DNA of 64,000 bases from Phymorhynchus buccinoides. Its lineage: Eukaryota; Mollusca; Gastropoda; Neogastropoda; Raphitomidae. Position 1 is the first letter of the stretch, and each line of letters opens with the position of its first letter. Of the stretch, positions 48,627 to 57,244 are shown one piece after another. Location of the stretch: assembly GCA_017654935.2 (NCBI GenBank), contig CM065710.1:11442415-11506414 (forward strand), in the 5' to 3' direction. The notes below the pieces were generated by a model. The model had not been told where the DNA came from and ran no database searches. It worked only from the letters and a program-made list of their open reading frames with translations. The position numbers and the translations under genes were made by a program.

Positions 48627-49490
48627 TTAGTGACGTAATGATTTATCTTTAATGATATTGGACAATGATCTGAATAAGCTGTTAAATCGTGAACTTTCCA
48701 TATTGATTACATCATTCAATAAGTCTTGAGAGCATAATAAGTAATCAACAACGCTACATCCTTTGGGTGTGTAACAAGTATATCGACCTTGTAAGTCGCC
48801 AAGTGTTCTGCCATTGAGAATACTCATGTTACAGTCAATACATATAAATGTGAGTTTCCTACCAAGTTTTTGGACACAACTGTCCATAGAACATCTGTCA
48901 TTTACTGTATTAAACGAATAATGCTCAGGTAGTGGATATGTATTATTTTCCTTGTCCATTTGGATGTAGTCAGGAATCGTGCCTGACCTTGCATTAAAGT
49001 CTCCGCACAAAATTACTTGTTCATTGCTGGATAGATTAATTAGATCAGCTTCGACTTTGTCCCATATACTGCTCGTAAAATCTTTACCAAAAGAGGAATG
49101 TTCTGGGGGTATATACACACATCCTATGTATGTTTGGTTTGTATGTCCCTCTTTTTGCATTCTCAACCAAGCTATATCACTGTTATTTGGGGGTAGAATC
49201 TTAACAAACTTTCTTAAGTTTTGTTTGATAAAAATCGATATACCCCCTGAAGACTTTTGAGCCTTTGCACGCTTGGGACGACAATAATGTATTCCTGGGG
49301 CGAAGTCTGCAAAATGTACCTTGCATGCAGTTTCATTGTCAAGGTGTGTCTCTTGCAGAAAGACTATATCATATTCTGATATAAATATAATCACATCATT
49401 TTCTTCTAATTTATTTATCTTTTGTCCATCAATGGTTTCTTTAAATCCCTTTACATTCCATGAAAGTATCTTTAAATTGTCAAGTTTCAT
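48627..49490 (-). pseudogene. LINE AP-type endonuclease domain, frameshifted near its end
   Basis: From ATG at 49490: LKILSWNVKGF (Asn), YDIVFLQETHL (Glu), GGISIFIKQN, YIGCVYIPPEHSSFG, VILCGDFNAR (Asp-x-Asn) and CSVVDYLLCS. The terminal SDH motif is present (HDLTAYSDHCPI, about 48690-48655) but in another frame, so one base was gained or lost after MESS. The domain nicks target DNA for target-primed reverse transcription; this copy should be inactive because the pol frame breaks here. Confidence 0.9.
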
Positions 49491-49554
49491 TGTACGTTAA
49501 ATAAGGTGTGTGTTTGGTAGTGATTGAAAGCATTATATTGTTATACAGTGAAAA

Positions 49555-50640
49555 TTAATCACAGTGCATGTAATCATGCACATTTTCATAATATCTGTCA
49601 CGGCTGTCCCCTCTGTGAACCCTTGAGTGATGCCAGTCGTCAAGGTAGTTTTGAGGGTGAAAGCCTTTCTCCTGTTGTCCATGACTGCGGAAGAGTAAGT
49701 CATATCTATGACTGTTTCCGTCGTTGTCGCGCCTTCTGCTTCTGTAGTCCCCTGGTTCTTGCCGGTCGTCATGGTAGTATTGAGGATTGAAGGACACATT
49801 TTCCCTCTCCATGTTGTCCATGACTGCGGAAGGGTAAGTCATATATATGACTGTTTCCGTCGTTGTCGCGCCTTCTGCTTCTGTAGTCCTCTGGTTCTTG
49901 CCGGTCGTCATGGTAGTATTGAGGATTGAAGCGTTTTTCATTGTGTCCATAGCTGCGATAGTGTTGACCGTTTCTGATATCGTTCCCGTTTTTGTCATGG
50001 CTTCTTCTGTTGTCGTCATGGTAGTTTTGAAGATTGTTGCGTGTCTCATGTTGTCCGTAGCTTCTATGTTGTGGACCATTTCCATAAGCTTCTCTATTTC
50101 TGTCGTCACTTCTTCCCCTGTTGTCGTCACTGCAGTCTTGAGGATTGGAACCATCTTCATGCTGTCTACTACTGTAATAGAAATGGCCAACTCTCTTTCT
50201 GTCGTGGCTTCTTCCTCTGTTGTCGTCATGGAAGTTTTGAGGTGTTGTAGCGGTTTTCATGCTGCCTACTGCTGCGAAAGTGTTGGTAATTTAAAACAAG
50301 AAAAAAAAAAAAAAAAAAAAAATTTGTGATCATCTCTGTTTCTGTTGTGGCTTCTTCCTCTGTTGTCGTTATGGAAGTTTTGAGGGTTGTAGCGGTTTTC
50401 ATGCTGGTCATAGTTGCGGTGACTTGCACTATTTCTGTGACCATTTTCATAGGCTCCGCTTGTATAAGTTTGGCTTTTGTTGTACTGGTTGTTTTTTGCG
50501 TTCTGCGTGTGCAGTGTTATGCCTGGGTTTGTCCTCGTGAAACAGTACACTAGGCCTTCTGTTGTTTGTTTCTCGATCCTTTCTGTGTTGATAGTTGTTT
50601 GTGACTGTACTTCCTTTTTCGTCGTCTGAGCTGTCATATG
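49555..50640 (-). pseudogene. ORF1 C-terminal repeat region (HDDNRGR repeats), with poly-A insertion
   Basis: About seven units of 101-143 bp, marked on the plus strand by tgtcgtcatgg/cggtcgtcatgg at 49629-50363. The minus strand reads NPQNFHDDNRGRSHDRNR-like repeats rich in Asn, Asp, Arg, His and Tyr. An A/T run at 50290-50322 and shifts between units break it. Such Arg/Asn-rich tails fit an RNA-binding role, which is inference. Confidence 0.7.
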
Positions 50641-52231
50641 AGGTCTTTTCCAGCGATTCTCTCTGGAGACTTGGTGTTTTTCTTGCCGAATCTTGCTGGT
50701 TGGATCTGTGGTTTGTTCGTTTGATGTGTTTCTTTTGCTTTTGCCTTTGCCATAGGATGCTATGAACCCGTCGTCCTATGTTTCCTGCCAGAAGTCCAGA
50801 CCCTCTCTCATTCGGGTGAATCTCATCATGCATGATGTTTTCTTTGTTCTTCAAGTTGTCATGCTGAAGGAAGGACACTTCTTTTGATTTCAGGTTTGCA
50901 AATACCATAGCACTGTACACCTCTTTTTTGCCATCTAACATTTCATCGAGCGTCCCCCTTGGGATGACGTTGCTGATGACAACTTGTGATTTGGGGCACT
51001 GCTTTTTGATATTTGTAACGCATTTGGTCATCTTCTTGCTGGCCTTGTTGGCTGAGCTTTTCTTGAGATTGTTTATTCCAAGATGCAAGAGAATGACGTC
51101 AGGGTCTTGACCATCCTGTAACCTGAGCTTACTACACTCCTCAATGGTTGGTGCTTTCGTCATGTTTGTCTTTAAACCATACGACTTGCCCAGGCGTTCT
51201 GGGTCGATGCCCCTCAGAACTGAGTCATGAATTACACGAAGGCTTGGGAGGTTTTCATCTTGTTCTCCTTCAGTATGGCTTGTTTTGTCATCTGAGTCAG
51301 TGCTACTGACGTCACTGACACTGTCTGACTCAATGATGTGACATTCACGCGCCTGAGTGTGTTGTGCCGTGTTTGGGCTGCATTTCCTTTGTGATGTTTC
51401 CTTATGTCCAGTCCTTTCTTTTTCTTCCTTTGAGGTGGGTATTTGGTGCGTTGAATTGGTGGGTGTTGTGGTACCAAATTTGTAATTGTGCTCTTTGGCT
51501 GGTGTTTGTTCATGGCCATCTGTTGTCTGATTGGCTCTATCTTGGGTAGGTGCATCCTTGCTGTTACCAATTTGATGCTCAAGTTTGTTTTGTATACTGT
51601 GTATCAGTTGCGCAAATCCATCTCCCCTTATTCCATCCGATTTTTGTGACTGTTCTGTGAGATTTATGACTGCTTTCTCAAGGTTTTGTAGGATGTTTTC
51701 TGTTTTTTGGTTGTGCACTTCAAGCAGTGCACACAAAGTGCTGTCATTTGTGCTTTTGCTTGTTGCATCTTCTTGTTGGGGTTTGTCTTTTCGTCCTGCA
51801 GCTATTATCTCTTCTTCTATTTGATCATCGTGTAGTGACTGTGCACAAAGTTCACATGTGTATTTTCTTTGTGTCTTGGCGAAGATGCAAACTTGATATA
51901 TGGGTAGCTTAGTGCAGGAGTAATGGATCTTCTGATTGCAGTCTGCACATTTCAGTGATTTCTCAGTGTTCTTTTCTTTGCAGAAGCACTGTACGTCTTT
52001 TTTGAGTTGATGCCTTTGCGTCATTGACACTTGCGTCATAATCTAAATCTCTTGCATCACAGTTTGTTCCATTTTCTGTTTTTGACATGCTGTTGCTTTC
52101 AACTGTCCCACTGACCTCTTTTTCTGGTTCATTCGTCAGCGGAATGTCATCCCATTCTCCGTAAACCACTGGGTCAGGGAAACCAGCTCGTTTCATGGCC
52201 TCTTTTGCCGCAGCCATTGTGGCGTAGCCTT
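50447..52231 (-). pseudogene. LINE ORF1: end of hybrid-binding domain, PHD-like finger, SGNH-esterase-like domain
   Basis: The frame starting YATMAAAKEAMKRAG ends the N-terminal domain and continues GEWDDIPLTNEP. A one-base shift near a run of six A (about 52000) moves to the 530-codon frame with a Cys/His finger (CFCKEKN, CADCNQKIHYSC, CELC; C4HC3-like), a charged linker, and a domain with IHDSVLRGI, ILLHLGINNL, VVISNVIPRG and DEIHPNERG, matching SGNH/GDSL blocks I, III and V (Ser and Asp-x-x-His). Esterase-like ORF1 proteins are known in CR1-type LINEs. It is a pseudogene because of the shift and the LTR insertion. Confidence 0.85.
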
Positions 52232-52449
52232 TGTGGTAAGAGCCAAGGGAAGGGGGGGGTAATTAGGAAGATAGGGGGCAGGTCGGAGAGAGAGGCGAGA
52301 ACGAGGCTGGGGGGACGCGAGGACAGACCTAAGAGAGAGGCCGGGTCACGACGACGTGTGAAGAAAGTAAGTCCCCGATGTAGTCGTTAGAGTAGGACTA
52401 TGGGGGGTGGGGGGGAAGTAGTTAGTAGAGCTGAAGTGAAAATACTTCA
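52232..52449 (+). repeat. 5' LTR
   Basis: 218 bp, TG...CA ends, purine-rich (ggagagagaggcgagaacga). It reads the same as 56799-57016 at every base I compared. Confidence 0.95.
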
Positions 52450-52451
52450 AA

Positions 52452-52464
52452 TGGCGTCGCCGAC
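52452..52464 (+). promoter_or_regulatory. Putative tRNA primer-binding site
   Basis: TGGCGTCGCCGAC begins two bases after the LTR. TGG complements the CCA end of a tRNA. Which tRNA cannot be named without a search. Confidence 0.55.
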
Positions 52465-53537
52465 AAAATTTTAGTCCCCAAATTTGAGCGAACAAATTGT
52501 TAGTTTAAGTTTTGGCATTTTTATTTTTATCCAAAACCGGTTCGATTTCAGTTGCCAACGACTTCGTCGCTTCGATTTGCAATGAATTGTTGATCGTAAA
52601 TTTGAGGGGTTTTTTTTATTGAAAAGGTTTGGTAAATATTATGAGGGGTCAATTCGAGTAAAGTAGGGTGGGTTTTATTGATGAATTTTCGGAAATTGAG
52701 AAATTTTATTGAAAATTGGATTTTCATAGGAAGAAAAGTAAGGAGAGGAGCAGACGACATTTGGAGATGCGGCGCGAAAATGATGCCTCGTTTTGATGTT
52801 TAATATTTTTGGCCAATGGGCGTCCGCCAGAGAGAAGAAAAAGAAAAGATGTCCGTCATAAACAACGTAGTGCCTGGAAGGGGGAGGGGGGGGGGTTCGT
52901 CGATTGAACCCGTCGATTGTGGATGTTGACTTTTCTTGCAGGAATTGGTTTCGTTTTGGGAATGCAATGAGAGTATATGAGGAGCCATAATGGTCAGCTT
53001 TTGACCATGGGCCCTTAAGGAAAAGAAGAAATATTAATAAAATTAGGAAGTCGGTGTTTGTGAAACAACATTGACGAGGCAGAGAGGAGGAAGGTGGGTT
53101 TTTTGTTTTTGCTTGGGCTTGATTTTGTTCAATTTCGTTCTGTTTGCTGCATTGTTTTGTGAATGATGAATTGTTTCCAAACGATAGATTAATTTAACAA
53201 AAACATAAATAAATAAAAATTACCATGGTGGAATTAAAAAAAAATAAATAAATAAATAAATAAATAATAATAATTTCTTTTTTAGACATGCTCTTGAATC
53301 TGTGTAGGATCGTGGGGAGTGTTATTAACATTGACTGGATTAAGGGTGACATAGATATTACTGGGGTCTAGGCCACCTGGTCAACTGCATCTCTGTTGAG
53401 ATTTGTGTTATTCTATTTTTACTGGGATTGGGTCCACAATCATGTCTGGATGGTATTATTTTAACCTTTGAAGGATTCACCATACTGTTGTTTGTTGATT
53501 AAACTTGGAGTACTGCAAATTTTCACTAGTATGAGTG

Positions 53538-53568
<31 letters not shown>

Positions 53569-54080
53569 GGGTGGGGGGGGGTAAGGGGTTGCCTCTATTT
53601 TTACCTAATCCATTTTCTAACTGCAGTTACAGTTTACATCAGACTTGAATTTTTACTCCTCTGTAACTCGTCAGCTCTTTACGAGTGGGATAAAGATAAG
53701 AATTGGCCGTTCAAGTTTTTATCTAAACGAGTATTTTTAATTTGTATTGGGAAAGTACACCCTGGTATAATTAACTAATTTTATCCAACTCCAGGTTTCA
53801 TCGTAGACAAACTAGGTATGTTAGTAGTCCTCTAAAAACACAATTTAAAAATTAAAAAATGTACTCCACTCATGATCCTACACATAAAAATAATAAGATA
53901 AAGAGCAAATAAAATTTAGTAAACATTAATATTTGACAGCACATTCCACTATGTTTTAGCAAGCTAAAAGGAGGGAGTCTCCTTTATTGAGTGCACTTCA
54001 GCTAAGCAAGGCTACTTTCTATAATATTTATTACCCTGGGCTTGTATCTCAAGGTTTTTTGGGATATATCTCATGCTTTG
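52465..54080 (+). other. 5' untranslated interior of the LTR element
   Basis: No coding similarity. It holds poly-A runs at 53229-53270 and 53538-53568 and AT-rich DNA, and occupies the place where gag would be. Confidence 0.6.
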
Positions 54081-54082
54081 AC

Positions 54083-54244
54083 ATGAGTCCTAGTATGAAC
54101 AGGGTATGGAGGCAGAGGTTCAGGCAGACCATCAGGGCCTTGAGGGAGGTGGACCCGGGGGCACCATTGACTCCTTTTGAGTCAACACGTGCTGATCTGG
54201 CAAGTGAGGAACCGGGGACTTCAGGGGGACAAGGGGGTGGGTGA
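54083..54244 (+). CDS. Small upstream reading frame of the LTR element
   Basis: From ATG 54083: MSPSMNRVWRQRFRQTIRAL, then a Pro/Gly/Thr-rich end and a stop at 54242. The frame is open further up to 53987 without an ATG. It overlaps the TatD-side frame, which is open from 54191, by about 50 bp in a -1 arrangement (as gag and pol often are). Function unknown; it may be the start of the nuclease protein if a frameshift or splice joins them. Confidence 0.4.
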   Translation: MSPSMNRVWRQRFRQTIRALREVDPGAPLTPFESTRADLASEEPGTSGGQGGG

Positions 54245-54264
54245 AGAAGCTGAAGTTTAAAAAA

Positions 54265-55469
54265 ATGTTGAAGAAGCGTGAGGCACAGCTACGGGTCACA
54301 CCAGTGCAGAGTGACCTACAGGTTGTGGACTTGACGGGGAAGGGAAGTATAGGAACTCGGGAGGTTGTAGCGGTGGAAGCCAATCTAGCGGAAAGTATGG
54401 CATCAGTGCGCTTGGTTGAAAACAAGGGGGAGAAAGGAATGGAAATGGAGGATGGGACCGAGGGGAGGAGAGAGGCAAGTAAGCCATTCCTATATGATGC
54501 ACATTTTCATTTGGACAGGACGTTTGAGAGGGTAAGGGCTTCAGCAGGTATCGGTTCGGTTAATGACCAAACAGGGAAACTGAACTTCAATCTGTCAGCC
54601 CTACTGCAGGAGAGTGGTAGACCCGAGCCGATGAATGTCCAACTGCGGGGGGGTGTGGCTTGCTTCTGTGATGAGGTCTTCATCAACCACATTTGTGAAA
54701 ATAAAGACCTACAAGACCACTTGAGCAGTCAGACCAACTGCTGGTATGCTTTTGGCATACATCCCAAGAGTGCAGTCAAACTACTTCGGAATGGGGATAA
54801 GCAGGCAAGGAAGGTGATCGACTCGGTCCAGACTCTCCTGCAGATGCCAAATGCTGTAGCTTTAGGCGAGTTAGGCTTTGATTTCTCAGGGCCTACAAGT
54901 CCTAAACTACAGGAGGAACATTATGGCAGGAGCAACTCCTAAGGATGGTCCTTACGGCATCCAAGGAAAAGCTCCGAGAAGGGATCCCCATAGTGATCTA
55001 TGCTAGGGAGGCCAAGGGCGCTCACAACACGGTGGGGCTAGGAGGTCGGGGTACGGCCAACGAAGAAACCATCCGGATTCTTCAGCAGTATGTGGGTCCT
55101 CAGCACAGGATCTACGTACACTGTTTCCGTGGGGGAATTGAGGAGATTCGGAGATGGACCGAAGCTTTCCCGGAGGTGGTGTTTGGCCTGGTCCCTAGCG
55201 AGGATTTCACTTCGGGGGAGGTCCTGAAGGAGCTATTCCTAAAAGGAAAGCTGCTGTTGGAGACAGATGCCCCATATTTCACCGCTACAACTCCCGTTAA
55301 GGAAGAGTTTAGTACACCATATGGGGTTGCAAGGGTGCTCACCAGAGTAATGGCAAGGTTGCCTTTGCTCGAAGTCGGAGAGGGCAGATCCCGGAAACCC
55401 TCGTTGGCAGAAGTGGTGAATAGGGTCAATAGGACCTTTTGGGGGCTTTTCCGGAACATCCCTCAATGA
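54265..55469 (+). pseudogene. TatD-family metal-dependent nuclease (TATDN-like), one apparent frameshift
   Basis: TatD enzymes are TIM-barrel metal-dependent DNases. From ATG 54265: a basic leader (MLKKREAQLR), a variable stretch, then PFLYDAHFHLDRTF (His-x-His), NCWYAFGIHPKSA, AVALGELGFDFSG (Glu; usual form GEIGLD) and LQEE, where the frame shifts by -1 near 54915 (EEHYGRSNS and stop against ETLWQEQLLRM). The second frame gives GIPIVIYAREAKG, RIYVHCFRGGIEE (His), KLLLETDAPYF (Asp) and STPYGVARVL. The His normally in VIHxR is Tyr here, so one metal ligand looks lost. The core is full length for TatD (~300 residues). It sits alone between LTRs. It could be a captured host gene, or part of a known but unfamiliar element family. 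Confidence 0.9.
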
Positions 55470-55499
55470 AGATGAAGGGCAAGGCAAACAGGGTTCCCA

Positions 55500-56798
55500 C
55501 AATTAGTTTTTGTAGGGAAACAATCAATAATAAAGTAAAGTTAAACATGTAAAACATCAGACATGTGTTTAAAATAAAAATAATAATTGTTTAATCAAGT
55601 GATTGAGGGGCTATTTTTAATTTGATATGCCATGTATGGGTACTTAGCAAAACATTAAGTACTAATAGTGACCTGTCTAGGACTGGTTGTTGAATATATG
55701 CTTTAATTTTGGCTGGGTTTCTTCTGGTTTTCTTGGGGCCGATTTTCAAGATTCCAAGTGCAATCCCTATACTAACATGCAGTGTTGGGTGTACTACTGG
55801 GGGTCAACTCGGATGGAAGTTGTAATACATTGGGTGATTTTCTAATGTTTCACTTAATTTTGTAGTGGGAATCCTGGATAGTGCAGGTAGCTCTTTGAAT
55901 CTCACCTTGGTTTCACCATTTGGCTGCTTTAGAGCTATGAATTTGAGGCAGTACCCTCGGCATGGTTTGCCAGGTTGAGGGGGGCCTTGAAATCGCGGGC
56001 TCTTTTGAGAGGGAAAGGATGGGGGGGGTTTGGGAATTGGCGGTCTTAGAGCTATGAATTTGAGGCAGTACCCTCGACTCGGCATGGTTTGCCGGGATGA
56101 GGGGGGCCTTAAAATCGCAGGCTCTGAGAAGTAGGGAGGGGCTGGGGAAAAAGGAAGGGAGGTTCGGGAAAAGGGAAGGGAGGAATGGGAAGAGGGTAGG
56201 GAGAGGCTGGGAAAAAAAGAAGGGAGGTTCGGGAAAAGGGAAGGGAGGAATGGGAAGAGGGTAGGGAGAGGCTGGGGAAAAGGGAAGGGAGGTTCGGGAA
56301 AAGGGAAGGGAGGTTTGGGAAAAGGGAAGGGGGGAGGAGGTTTGGGGGAATGGGAAGAAGGGGGGAGGCTGGGGGTGGGGCTAGTAAAATTGTTCGATTT
56401 GGTTCTCTTTCTGTGGACTCCTTTGTAGAGGGGTCTGCAGCGTAGGAAGAGAATTTTTATGATGTATTTTCTTGTGGTTAGTGGGGAAATCCTTTGTAGA
56501 GGGTTTCTCCTCATTAAGATTTGTTAATGTATTAATTAATGAAGGGAGTTTTTGATGGGACAGTGGACTTGGTTTTACAAGTTCGAAGATTATGAAGGGT
56601 TGTTGTTGCATTGGAGAGTTATTGAATTTGGTGTTGTGTTAAAAGAAGTTGTTGCGTTTGAGAGTTATTGAATTTGGTGTTTTGTTAAAGGAACTTAGTA
56701 GCGTTGGGGAGTTCGTGGATTTATTAAATAGGTTTAGTTTTTAAGGGGTTTTGAGCTATGGGATGGGAGGGGAAACCTAAAAAGTAAAGGGGGGAGAG
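55500..56798 (+). other. 3' interior of the LTR element, with GA-rich tandem repeats
   Basis: A ~117-bp block with gctatgaatttgaggcagta occurs twice (55933 and 56051). From 56110 to 56370 runs a tandem of gggaagggaggttcggga-type units. The long proline-rich frame on the opposite strand comes from this skew and is not a gene. Confidence 0.8.
56779..56798 (+). promoter_or_regulatory. Polypurine tract
   Basis: aaaaagtaaaggggggagag directly precedes the 3' LTR (one T inside), the usual plus-strand primer site. Confidence 0.8.
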
Positions 56799-57016
56799 TG
56801 TGGTAAGAGCCAAGGGAAGGGGGGGGTAATTAGGAAGATAGGGGGCAGGTCGGAGAGAGAGGCGAGAACGAGGCTGGGGGGACGCGAGGACAGACCTAAG
56901 AGAGAGGCCGGGTCACGACGACGTGTGAAGAAAGTAAGTCCCCGATGTAGTCGTTAGAGTAGGACTATGGGGGGTGGGGGGGAAGTAGTTAGTAGAGCTG
57001 AAGTGAAAATACTTCA
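56799..57016 (+). repeat. 3' LTR
   Basis: 218 bp, same sequence as the 5' LTR; followed by CCTT of the target duplication. Confidence 0.95.
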
Positions 57017-57180
57017 CCTTTATGGCTAGCCTTTGGGTAGCCGTTTACTGATTGCGATGCCTGATTCCAGTTTTCGAAAATCCCAGTTACTCTACCGCAA
57101 CTTACTGCGTAAATTTTCCTTCCTTGTCGTTTTGCTTTCGAGTTGTTGCAAGATATTATCGCTATATCTTCATTTGACAT
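57017..57180 (-). pseudogene. LINE ORF1 N-terminus: Cauli_VI / RNase H hybrid-binding-like domain
   Basis: From ATG at 57180: a short leader, then KIYAVSCGRVTGIFENWNQ and VNGYPKASHKG, the pattern of the hybrid-binding domain of eukaryotic RNase H1 and caulimovirus translational activators (YAVxxGRxxGIYxxWxxxxxxVxGYPxAxxKxF). The end of the domain lies on the other side of the LTR insertion at 52231. Confidence 0.85.
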
Positions 57181-57244
57181 TCTGTTTTTGAATTTCTTTT
57201 ACCGAGCTTGTATCAGTTGTTTCTCATCGTCGCCATTGTCCCGG

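Follow-up and report, generated by a model that had tools for sequence, protein, structure and literature searches.

A TatD-bearing LTR element of Phymorhynchus buccinoides as a probable internal-deletion derivative of a Ty3/gypsy retrotransposon

Anatomy of the window element

We analyzed a 64-kb stretch of the Phymorhynchus buccinoides genome (C31:11442415-11506414 within the 2.12-Gb assembly; hereafter, the window), in which an element bounded by long terminal repeats (LTRs) occupies window positions 52232-57016 and contains the remnant of a TatD-type nuclease gene. Comparison with related copies in the same genome indicated that this element is very probably a non-autonomous internal-deletion derivative of a Ty3/gypsy element of approximately 16 kb with gag, pol and a third open reading frame (ORF3), which bears TatD and lies in the env position. 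This reading is based on the anatomy of the relatives, the LTR, primer-binding site (PBS) and polypurine tract (PPT) in common with them, the deletion, a single insertion, the damaged TatD sequence and the linkage of pol and TatD in at least two further diverged families. The element and its borders consist of the following features, in window coordinates.

52228..52231, left target-site duplication CCTT (flank comparison; empty-site frame restored)
52232..52449, plus strand, 5' LTR, 218 bp, TGTGG...CTTCA (identical to the 3' LTR; same LTR at other loci)
52450..54094, plus strand, untranslated leader, matching the initial stretch of the full-length element's leader (95% identical to the L096 and L097 leaders)
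52452..52464, plus strand, putative PBS TGGCGTCGCCGAC (letter-identical in the full-length relatives L096, L097 and L100)
54083..54244, plus strand, first frame of the ORF3 remnant, from the leader ATG to the first frameshift (frame listing and alignment to relatives)
54094..54095, plus strand, deletion joint CCTAGT/ATGAAC (about 11.3 kb gone compared with C6:53288820)
54208..54942, plus strand, second frame, covering the ORF3 linker and the N-terminal half of TatD (PF01026 at about 54496-54912) with the HxH and Glu ligands
54906..55469, plus strand, third frame, C-terminal half of TatD with the third His ligand changed to Tyr, and the ORF3 stop
55470..56778, plus strand, 3' untranslated region (UTR), containing a G-rich minisatellite at 56131-56331 and a pair of repeats spaced by about 120 bp
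56779..56798, plus strand, PPT AAAAAGTAAAGGGGGGAGAG, directly 5' of the 3' LTR (identical in L092, L094 and L095)
56799..57016, plus strand, 3' LTR, 218 bp (identical to the 5' LTR)
57017..57020, right target-site duplication CCTT (flank comparison)

As evident from this list, the hallmarks of an LTR retrotransposon, namely paired LTRs, a short target duplication, a PBS and a PPT, were all present. An earlier note on this DNA had described identical 218-bp LTRs with TG/CA ends, a target duplication, a PBS-like start and a PPT, all in plus orientation, and each of these points was confirmed. The putative PBS begins 2 nt past the 5' LTR end, and the L104 version of it has one extra G. Across 218 bp, no difference was found between the two LTRs, in agreement with the recent movement that the note had proposed. 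Its statement that the copy contains no gag-pol also held: none of the ten internal frames matched gag or pol in Pfam, the DNA of the family's own gag and pol was likewise unmatched there, and the gag-pol that marks an autonomous element is missing. Judged from its letters, the window element is a recent mover without gag-pol. When the flanks were rejoined with a single CCTT, a minus-strand frame was open through the start of a Cauli_VI (RNase H1-N) match, and the insertion is considered precise because this rejoining restores the open frame.

The TatD remnant was found in two overlapping frames with PF01026 matches of E=3e-7 and 1.3e-10. The metal-ligand roles in TatD enzymes (HxH, E, H, H, D) are known from the TatD literature. 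The earlier note had credited the nuclease with nearly all metal-binding motifs; the PF01026 assignment proved real and the motifs fair, but two lesions break the frame, the loss of 1 nt from a run of G and a deletion of 4 nt. At one of the six canonical ligand positions the copy has Tyr; His occupies this position in 45 of 46 homologues, and the remaining one has a gap. Thus, the remnant lacks the open frame and full ligand set of a TatD member, and because of the frameshifts and the His-to-Tyr change, the window copy is, by its predicted translation, incapable of making an intact TatD enzyme. A PDB sequence comparison with one window frame gave no match.

Full-length relatives and the deletion joint

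The LTR search of the genome gave 32 matches, of which 28, in 19 locus groups including the window, were examined and module-scanned; the others are at C22, C25, C223 and C3:2138828. Sequences of gag, pol, ORF3 and TatD were found together in seven of the 19 groups (C6 twice, C13, C15, C19, C3615 and C1662). Their order was gag-pol-ORF3-TatD in six of these, the C19 locus being internally inverted, and at C15 and C19 the end of gag alone was found. TatD without pol was present in four groups (the window, its two duplicates and L091, of which 2.2 kb was seen), and gag with part of pol but no TatD in two (C18 and C23). Five of the remaining six contained only LTR, leader or 3' UTR-like pieces, and C4 contained nothing at the cut-off used. 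The LTR, PBS and PPT of the window element were the same as those of the gag-pol-TatD relatives.

The best-seen copy, C6:53288820, revealed a 5' LTR, a first gag ATG after 5.1 kb, a gag of 646 aa, a pol of 1341 aa, ORF3 in two overlapping frames with the shift in its repeat part, TatD and a 3' UTR followed by N; reckoned to where the LTR should end, it is about 16.2 kb long. The second C6 copy has ORF3 as a single open frame of 1168 aa with TatD at its end. Pfam matches were Retrotrans_gag (PF03732, 5.5e-7) and zf-CCHC (PF00098, 2.7e-9) for gag, and AP, RVT_1 (4e-32), RNase H, rve (2e-18) and PHD (8e-11) for pol; along the L109 pol, the domain order was protease, reverse transcriptase (RT), RNase H and integrase. 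A 205-aa RT piece matched Ty3 chains in the PDB at 2.9e-48 and 1.9e-47, with the next match at 2.8e-28 and all others at 3.2e-14 or weaker. By these domain matches, the full-length relatives are Ty3/gypsy LTR retrotransposons. We also observed that the PHD finger in L109:1933-5955 lies at the pol end, after the integrase C-terminal domain.

ORF3 was found to comprise RGG repeats, a C2H2-like zinc finger, an 'HW' domain and TatD, the zinc finger and HW domain being recognized by eye. The TatD match in the 1168-aa ORF3 had E=8.8e-24 (84.7 bits in L095 versus a cut-off of 27), and no other ORF3 domain, and no envelope match, was found in Pfam at E<=0.1. All TatD metal ligands were kept in L094, L095, L109, L111 and the TatD locus C20.

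The window element corresponds to positions 1-1863 of the full-length start joined directly to roughly the final 40% of ORF3, followed by the 3' UTR and the LTR. The right side of the joint lies about 710 residues into ORF3, and the leader ATG newly placed by the deletion reads in frame with ORF3. Neither GT-AG splicing nor a simple crossover within the shared AACAGGGTAT agrees with the joint; both sides have a three-base TAG in common if one base may differ. With at most one mismatch allowed, the joint occurs three times genome-wide, all on C31 (stretches of N could hide others). Upon comparison of these three copies, the left flank was 98.5-100% identical over 1 kb, and at least 134 bp of right flank, the CCTT, both frameshifts and the His-to-Tyr change were common to all; the LTR pair was identical inside each. 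The region C31:11230910-11499430 contains them as one insertion carried by three segmental duplicates, with spacings of about 114 and 150 kb. Because the copies have the same flanks and target duplication, they are, on alignment, one insertion that was later duplicated.

Three other loci were also of note. At C15 (L093/L092) and C19 (L113/L094), a gag end near position 1734 on the minus strand stands head to head with a plus-strand ORF3-TatD-LTR piece, and these loci may be autointegration products or an assembly artefact. At C8 (L098:4731-4962), a solo LTR of 82% identity has a CTAG target duplication; it is an independent insertion that has probably been recombined out.

TatD in further families and other organisms

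To estimate selection, ratios of nonsynonymous to synonymous substitution rates (dN/dS) were calculated against the L095 frame. For TatD, the ratio was 0.15 in L117 (180 codons, half of the domain) and 0.14 in L118 (304 codons), with Fisher p values of 5e-4 and 2e-16 on approximate site numbers. The values for pol in the same two copies were comparable, at 0.05-0.19, and those for gag were higher, at 0.24 (L117) and 0.29 (L106). In the two deeper comparisons, which are the informative ones, the substitution pattern indicates that purifying selection acts on TatD.

A whole-genome search with PF01026 listed 35 matches, and one with integrase-PHD listed 98, from 95 of 2856 candidates scored. Among the matches listed, 10 of the 35 TatD matches had pol within 8 kb, and nine of the 10 were on the same strand, 0.4-2.8 kb downstream of pol, C19 being inverted; about 0.0001 such pairs per TatD match would be expected by chance under a uniform model. 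The LTR search had not listed three of these nine, namely C20 and C1591 (pol 81% and 79% identical) and C16 (pol 48%). The C20 TatD, 2.8 kb behind its pol, was open across 320 aa at 50% identity with every ligand kept (dN 0.43, synonymous sites saturated), and at C16 a TatD piece lies 397 bp downstream of the integrase/pol end. Overall, TatD appears to be a lasting component of the full-length elements.

A protein search gave 46 relatives at 25-33% identity, with the signature HFH(L/M)D in 29, HCH(L/I)D in 12, including named TATDN2 proteins, and neither by the motif used in five. The HFH class has named members from Saccostrea, Elysia, Nucella and Patiria; Tegillarca P0029, which lacks the exact motif, groups with it. 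In the region before TatD, a C2H2-like C...C...H...HxP motif was found in 11 of the 46 and an HW motif in 21, two of these 21 being HCH proteins. A profile of 12 N-terminal parts of animal HFHxD proteins aligned with ORF3 450-605 at an hhalign probability of 95.4 (E 1.9e-8), and a gag piece used as a control gave 0.9 (E 0.06). The zinc-finger/HW/TatD layout of ORF3 recurs, whole or in part, in proteins from molluscs and from one echinoderm. In a 55-row tree, the HFH class and ORF3 were split from the HCH class and bacteria by a 99/96 branch, and ORF3 paired weakly with P0001 (81/47) on long branches. A search with ORF3 gave one further protein. No relative was found in the viral contigs searched with the TatD-class alignment and with pol, and the best 80 of 577 relatives in a genome-contig scan were all labelled as bacterial records.

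Relatives of pol in the protein database numbered 3051 of 7998 scored candidates at E<=1e-100 and were up to 70% identical, one named species being Batillaria attramentaria (61%); taken by itself, this points to a gastropod-like mollusc as the probable host. The PHD domain (PF00628) was present in the 21 best of them (P0049-P0069) and missing from most later ones. The related pol protein P0135 contains a macro domain (PF01661), which is possibly another accessory domain in these elements. TatD hydrolases P0006, P0019 and P0028, from Thiodiazotropha and Sedimenticola genome bins, are probably host contamination because they group with the animal HFH class. In PMC6962438, a figure of the giant squid Hox cluster includes a predicted TATDN2 gene among non-Hox genes, some of them transposon-like; this prediction may be a retrotransposon ORF3.

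Origin of the element and role of the nuclease

Template switching during reverse transcription probably created the deletion, because the joint misfits GT-AG splicing. A full-length relative, whose PBS and PPT are identical, would presumably have supplied the proteins for packaging the deleted RNA and integrating it in trans. Reverse transcription of a spliced subgenomic RNA, as env-like splicing would yield for ORF3, could likewise have joined the leader to the ORF3 region, removed gag and pol and placed the new leader ATG in frame. We consider this very unlikely: the left and right parent sequences offer no GT and AG, which rules out GT-AG splicing at the joint, and the entry lies about 710 residues into ORF3, not at its start.

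The earlier note had offered two explanations, capture of a host TATDN gene or a nuclease that serves a non-autonomous family having TatD instead of gag-pol. Chance capture in one copy, by transduction and with no role for the element, would agree with a broken copy confined to one insertion and with the presence of TatD genes in animal hosts. It is highly improbable in view of TatD at the same place in the full-length relatives and in diverged families such as C20, which contradicts it, of dN/dS well below 1 in the deeper comparisons, and of ORF3 and host-type HCHxD TATDN2 falling on opposite sides of the 99/96 branch. A spreading TatD-only family, similar to the large retrotransposon derivatives (LARDs) and carrying TatD as cargo, could explain the identical LTRs, the intact cis signals and the three near-identical copies, but it deserves hardly any credence: the flanks and target duplication are the same in all three copies, which also rules out three independent insertions on C31, and the joint was found nowhere else in the assembly, N stretches aside, at up to one mismatch. 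The many copies with different target duplications for which the note advised a search, and which an amplified family of independent insertions would provide, did not appear for the gag-pol-less form. That form is one insertion in three segmental duplicates, and this single insertion and single joint contradict the TatD-only family. Its advice to look for a gag-pol element with the same LTRs, PBS and PPT led to the 16-kb relatives, which carry gag, pol and TatD together and overturn the 'instead of' as a family trait. Neither outcome that the note had named as refuting, in its own wording, emerged, as the best-preserved gag-pol copies have TatD and TatD is not confined to the window copy. It was right about a recently moved LTR element with TatD in sense orientation, and right in suggesting that an element family may have the nuclease as a functional component.

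Several observations weigh against the derivation from a TatD-bearing parent and against selection on its nuclease. No full-length copy with both LTRs was seen, each copy running into N at one end or being truncated or rearranged; C3615 lacks the pol end and the second half of TatD, and C1662 lacks parts of integrase and ORF3. TatD contains one stop each in the full-length copies L094 and L111, and L092 has lost a ligand (Asp to His). L118 itself contains stops and frameshifts, which were dropped codon by codon; TatD dN/dS was 1.92 in L093, with 42 frameshifting gaps, and 0.89 in L111, on four changes; dS was 0 and hence uninformative in L092, L094 and L109; and the ORF3 zinc-finger/HW part, at 0.39 in L117, is under weaker constraint. 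Seven pol loci at 71-96% identity (C31:31423419, C28, C15:12934472, C15:12810706, C24, C3:29244871 and C7) had no listed TatD nearby, as was the case for 86 of the 98 pol matches, most at 33-51% identity. Finally, 25 of the 35 TatD matches had no listed pol near; six of these are C31 deletion copies, and the loci also include C23:983025, C23:1060182, C23:1095168, C13:9816154, C26 three times, C3213, C1946, C1050, C27, C8 twice, C17, C9 and C2. Among them, C17, C9 and C2 may be host exons, and the C23 loci, C13:9816154 and C26:32707052, the last with a 964-aa open frame, are possibly more element families or host genes.

On balance, the nuclease quite likely does something for the element that is under selection. 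We know of no catalytic role of such a nuclease in reverse transcription or integration in gag-pol elements. With less certainty, the RGG and zinc-finger parts of the ORF3 protein could serve to bind element nucleic acid, and TatD could assist RNase H by trimming 3' ends or by stripping RNA from RNA-DNA hybrids while cDNA is made or integrated. In cancer cells and medaka germ cells, TATDN2 has been linked to the resolution of R-loops (PMC12709183). With RGG repeats and a zinc finger in front of TatD, the likeliest task, though favoured only tentatively, would be to process hybrids or 3' ends that belong to the element itself. ORF3-TatD could instead work against host defence by degrading guide RNAs or foreign or competing nucleic acid, and not in reverse transcription. 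Accessory genes of retroelements and viruses often counter host defence, and the fast divergence of ORF3 (TatD 50% versus pol 81% identity between two families; 0.39 for the zinc-finger/HW part) would resemble an arms race. The low dN/dS of the catalytic core in deeper comparisons and the lack of direct support make this role doubtful, and some task other than these two also seems rather unlikely. We lean somewhat towards an old, widespread group of animal Ty3/gypsy elements in which TatD would be a standing third gene acting in reverse transcription or integration, many mollusc and echinoderm 'TATDN2-like' genes being retrotransposon genes.

The full-length elements resemble other Ty3/gypsy elements (Metaviridae) in having gag followed by protease-RT-RNase H-integrase, a 4-bp target duplication, a PBS and PPT and many pol relatives, and differ in the TatD-bearing third ORF, the PHD finger at the pol end and the 5.1-kb leader. 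The gypsy element itself is reportedly treated as an endogenous retrovirus with an extra ORF between pol and the 3' LTR; unlike in env-bearing gypsy, the third ORF here has TatD as its sole Pfam match at E<=0.1 and no envelope match. LARDs and terminal-repeat retrotransposons in miniature (TRIMs) are non-autonomous LTR derivatives, presumably moved in trans. The window copy resembles them in keeping LTR, PBS and PPT without gag-pol, but it is a single insertion event, not an amplified family, and has a coding-gene remnant inside. Animal TATDN2 has the PF01026 family and the ligand positions of intact copies in common with ORF3, which differs in HFHxDR versus HCHxD, 25-33% identity, the other side of the tree, the zinc-finger/HW part in front and its location in a retrotransposon. 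LTR retrotransposons are held to need gag and pol alone.

Plant LTR retrotransposons with additional ORFs (aORFs) between pol and the 3' LTR are described in PMC7264820. Those elements also have a sense ORF in the env position in the best-preserved copies, but theirs, where named in the abstract of that review, is env-like or of undetermined role, and ORF3 ends in a metal-dependent nuclease domain. Among the matches listed, titles and abstract starts from the LTR-retrotransposon, TATDN2 and accessory-ORF literature described no TatD gene in an LTR element. Within that literature, an accessory ORF in LTR elements is already known, and a TatD nuclease as that ORF appears to be a new variant. The third gene encodes a recognizable metal-dependent nuclease under apparent selection, and its role is thus testable in the tube. 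Retrotransposons may be the true source of TATDN2-like predictions in invertebrate genomes and of 'TatD family hydrolases' in some symbiont bins. As a deletion derivative, the window copy is of an ordinary kind, and it matters only as the product that revealed the family.

At the insertion site, the interrupted target lies on the minus strand at window 48627-52262 and 56989-57198 and gave RNase H1-N and weak PHD and GDSL matches; the interrupted frame is probably a LINE (long interspersed nuclear element) ORF1, as suggested by its domain matches. No tRNA gene was found within the window. An endonuclease-like frame was recognized by eye at 48627-49496 on the minus strand. Simple and G-rich repeats are present in the leader and the 3' region of the element (53540-53566 and 56131-56331), and repeat-rich frames lie behind the leader in the L096 and L097 copies.

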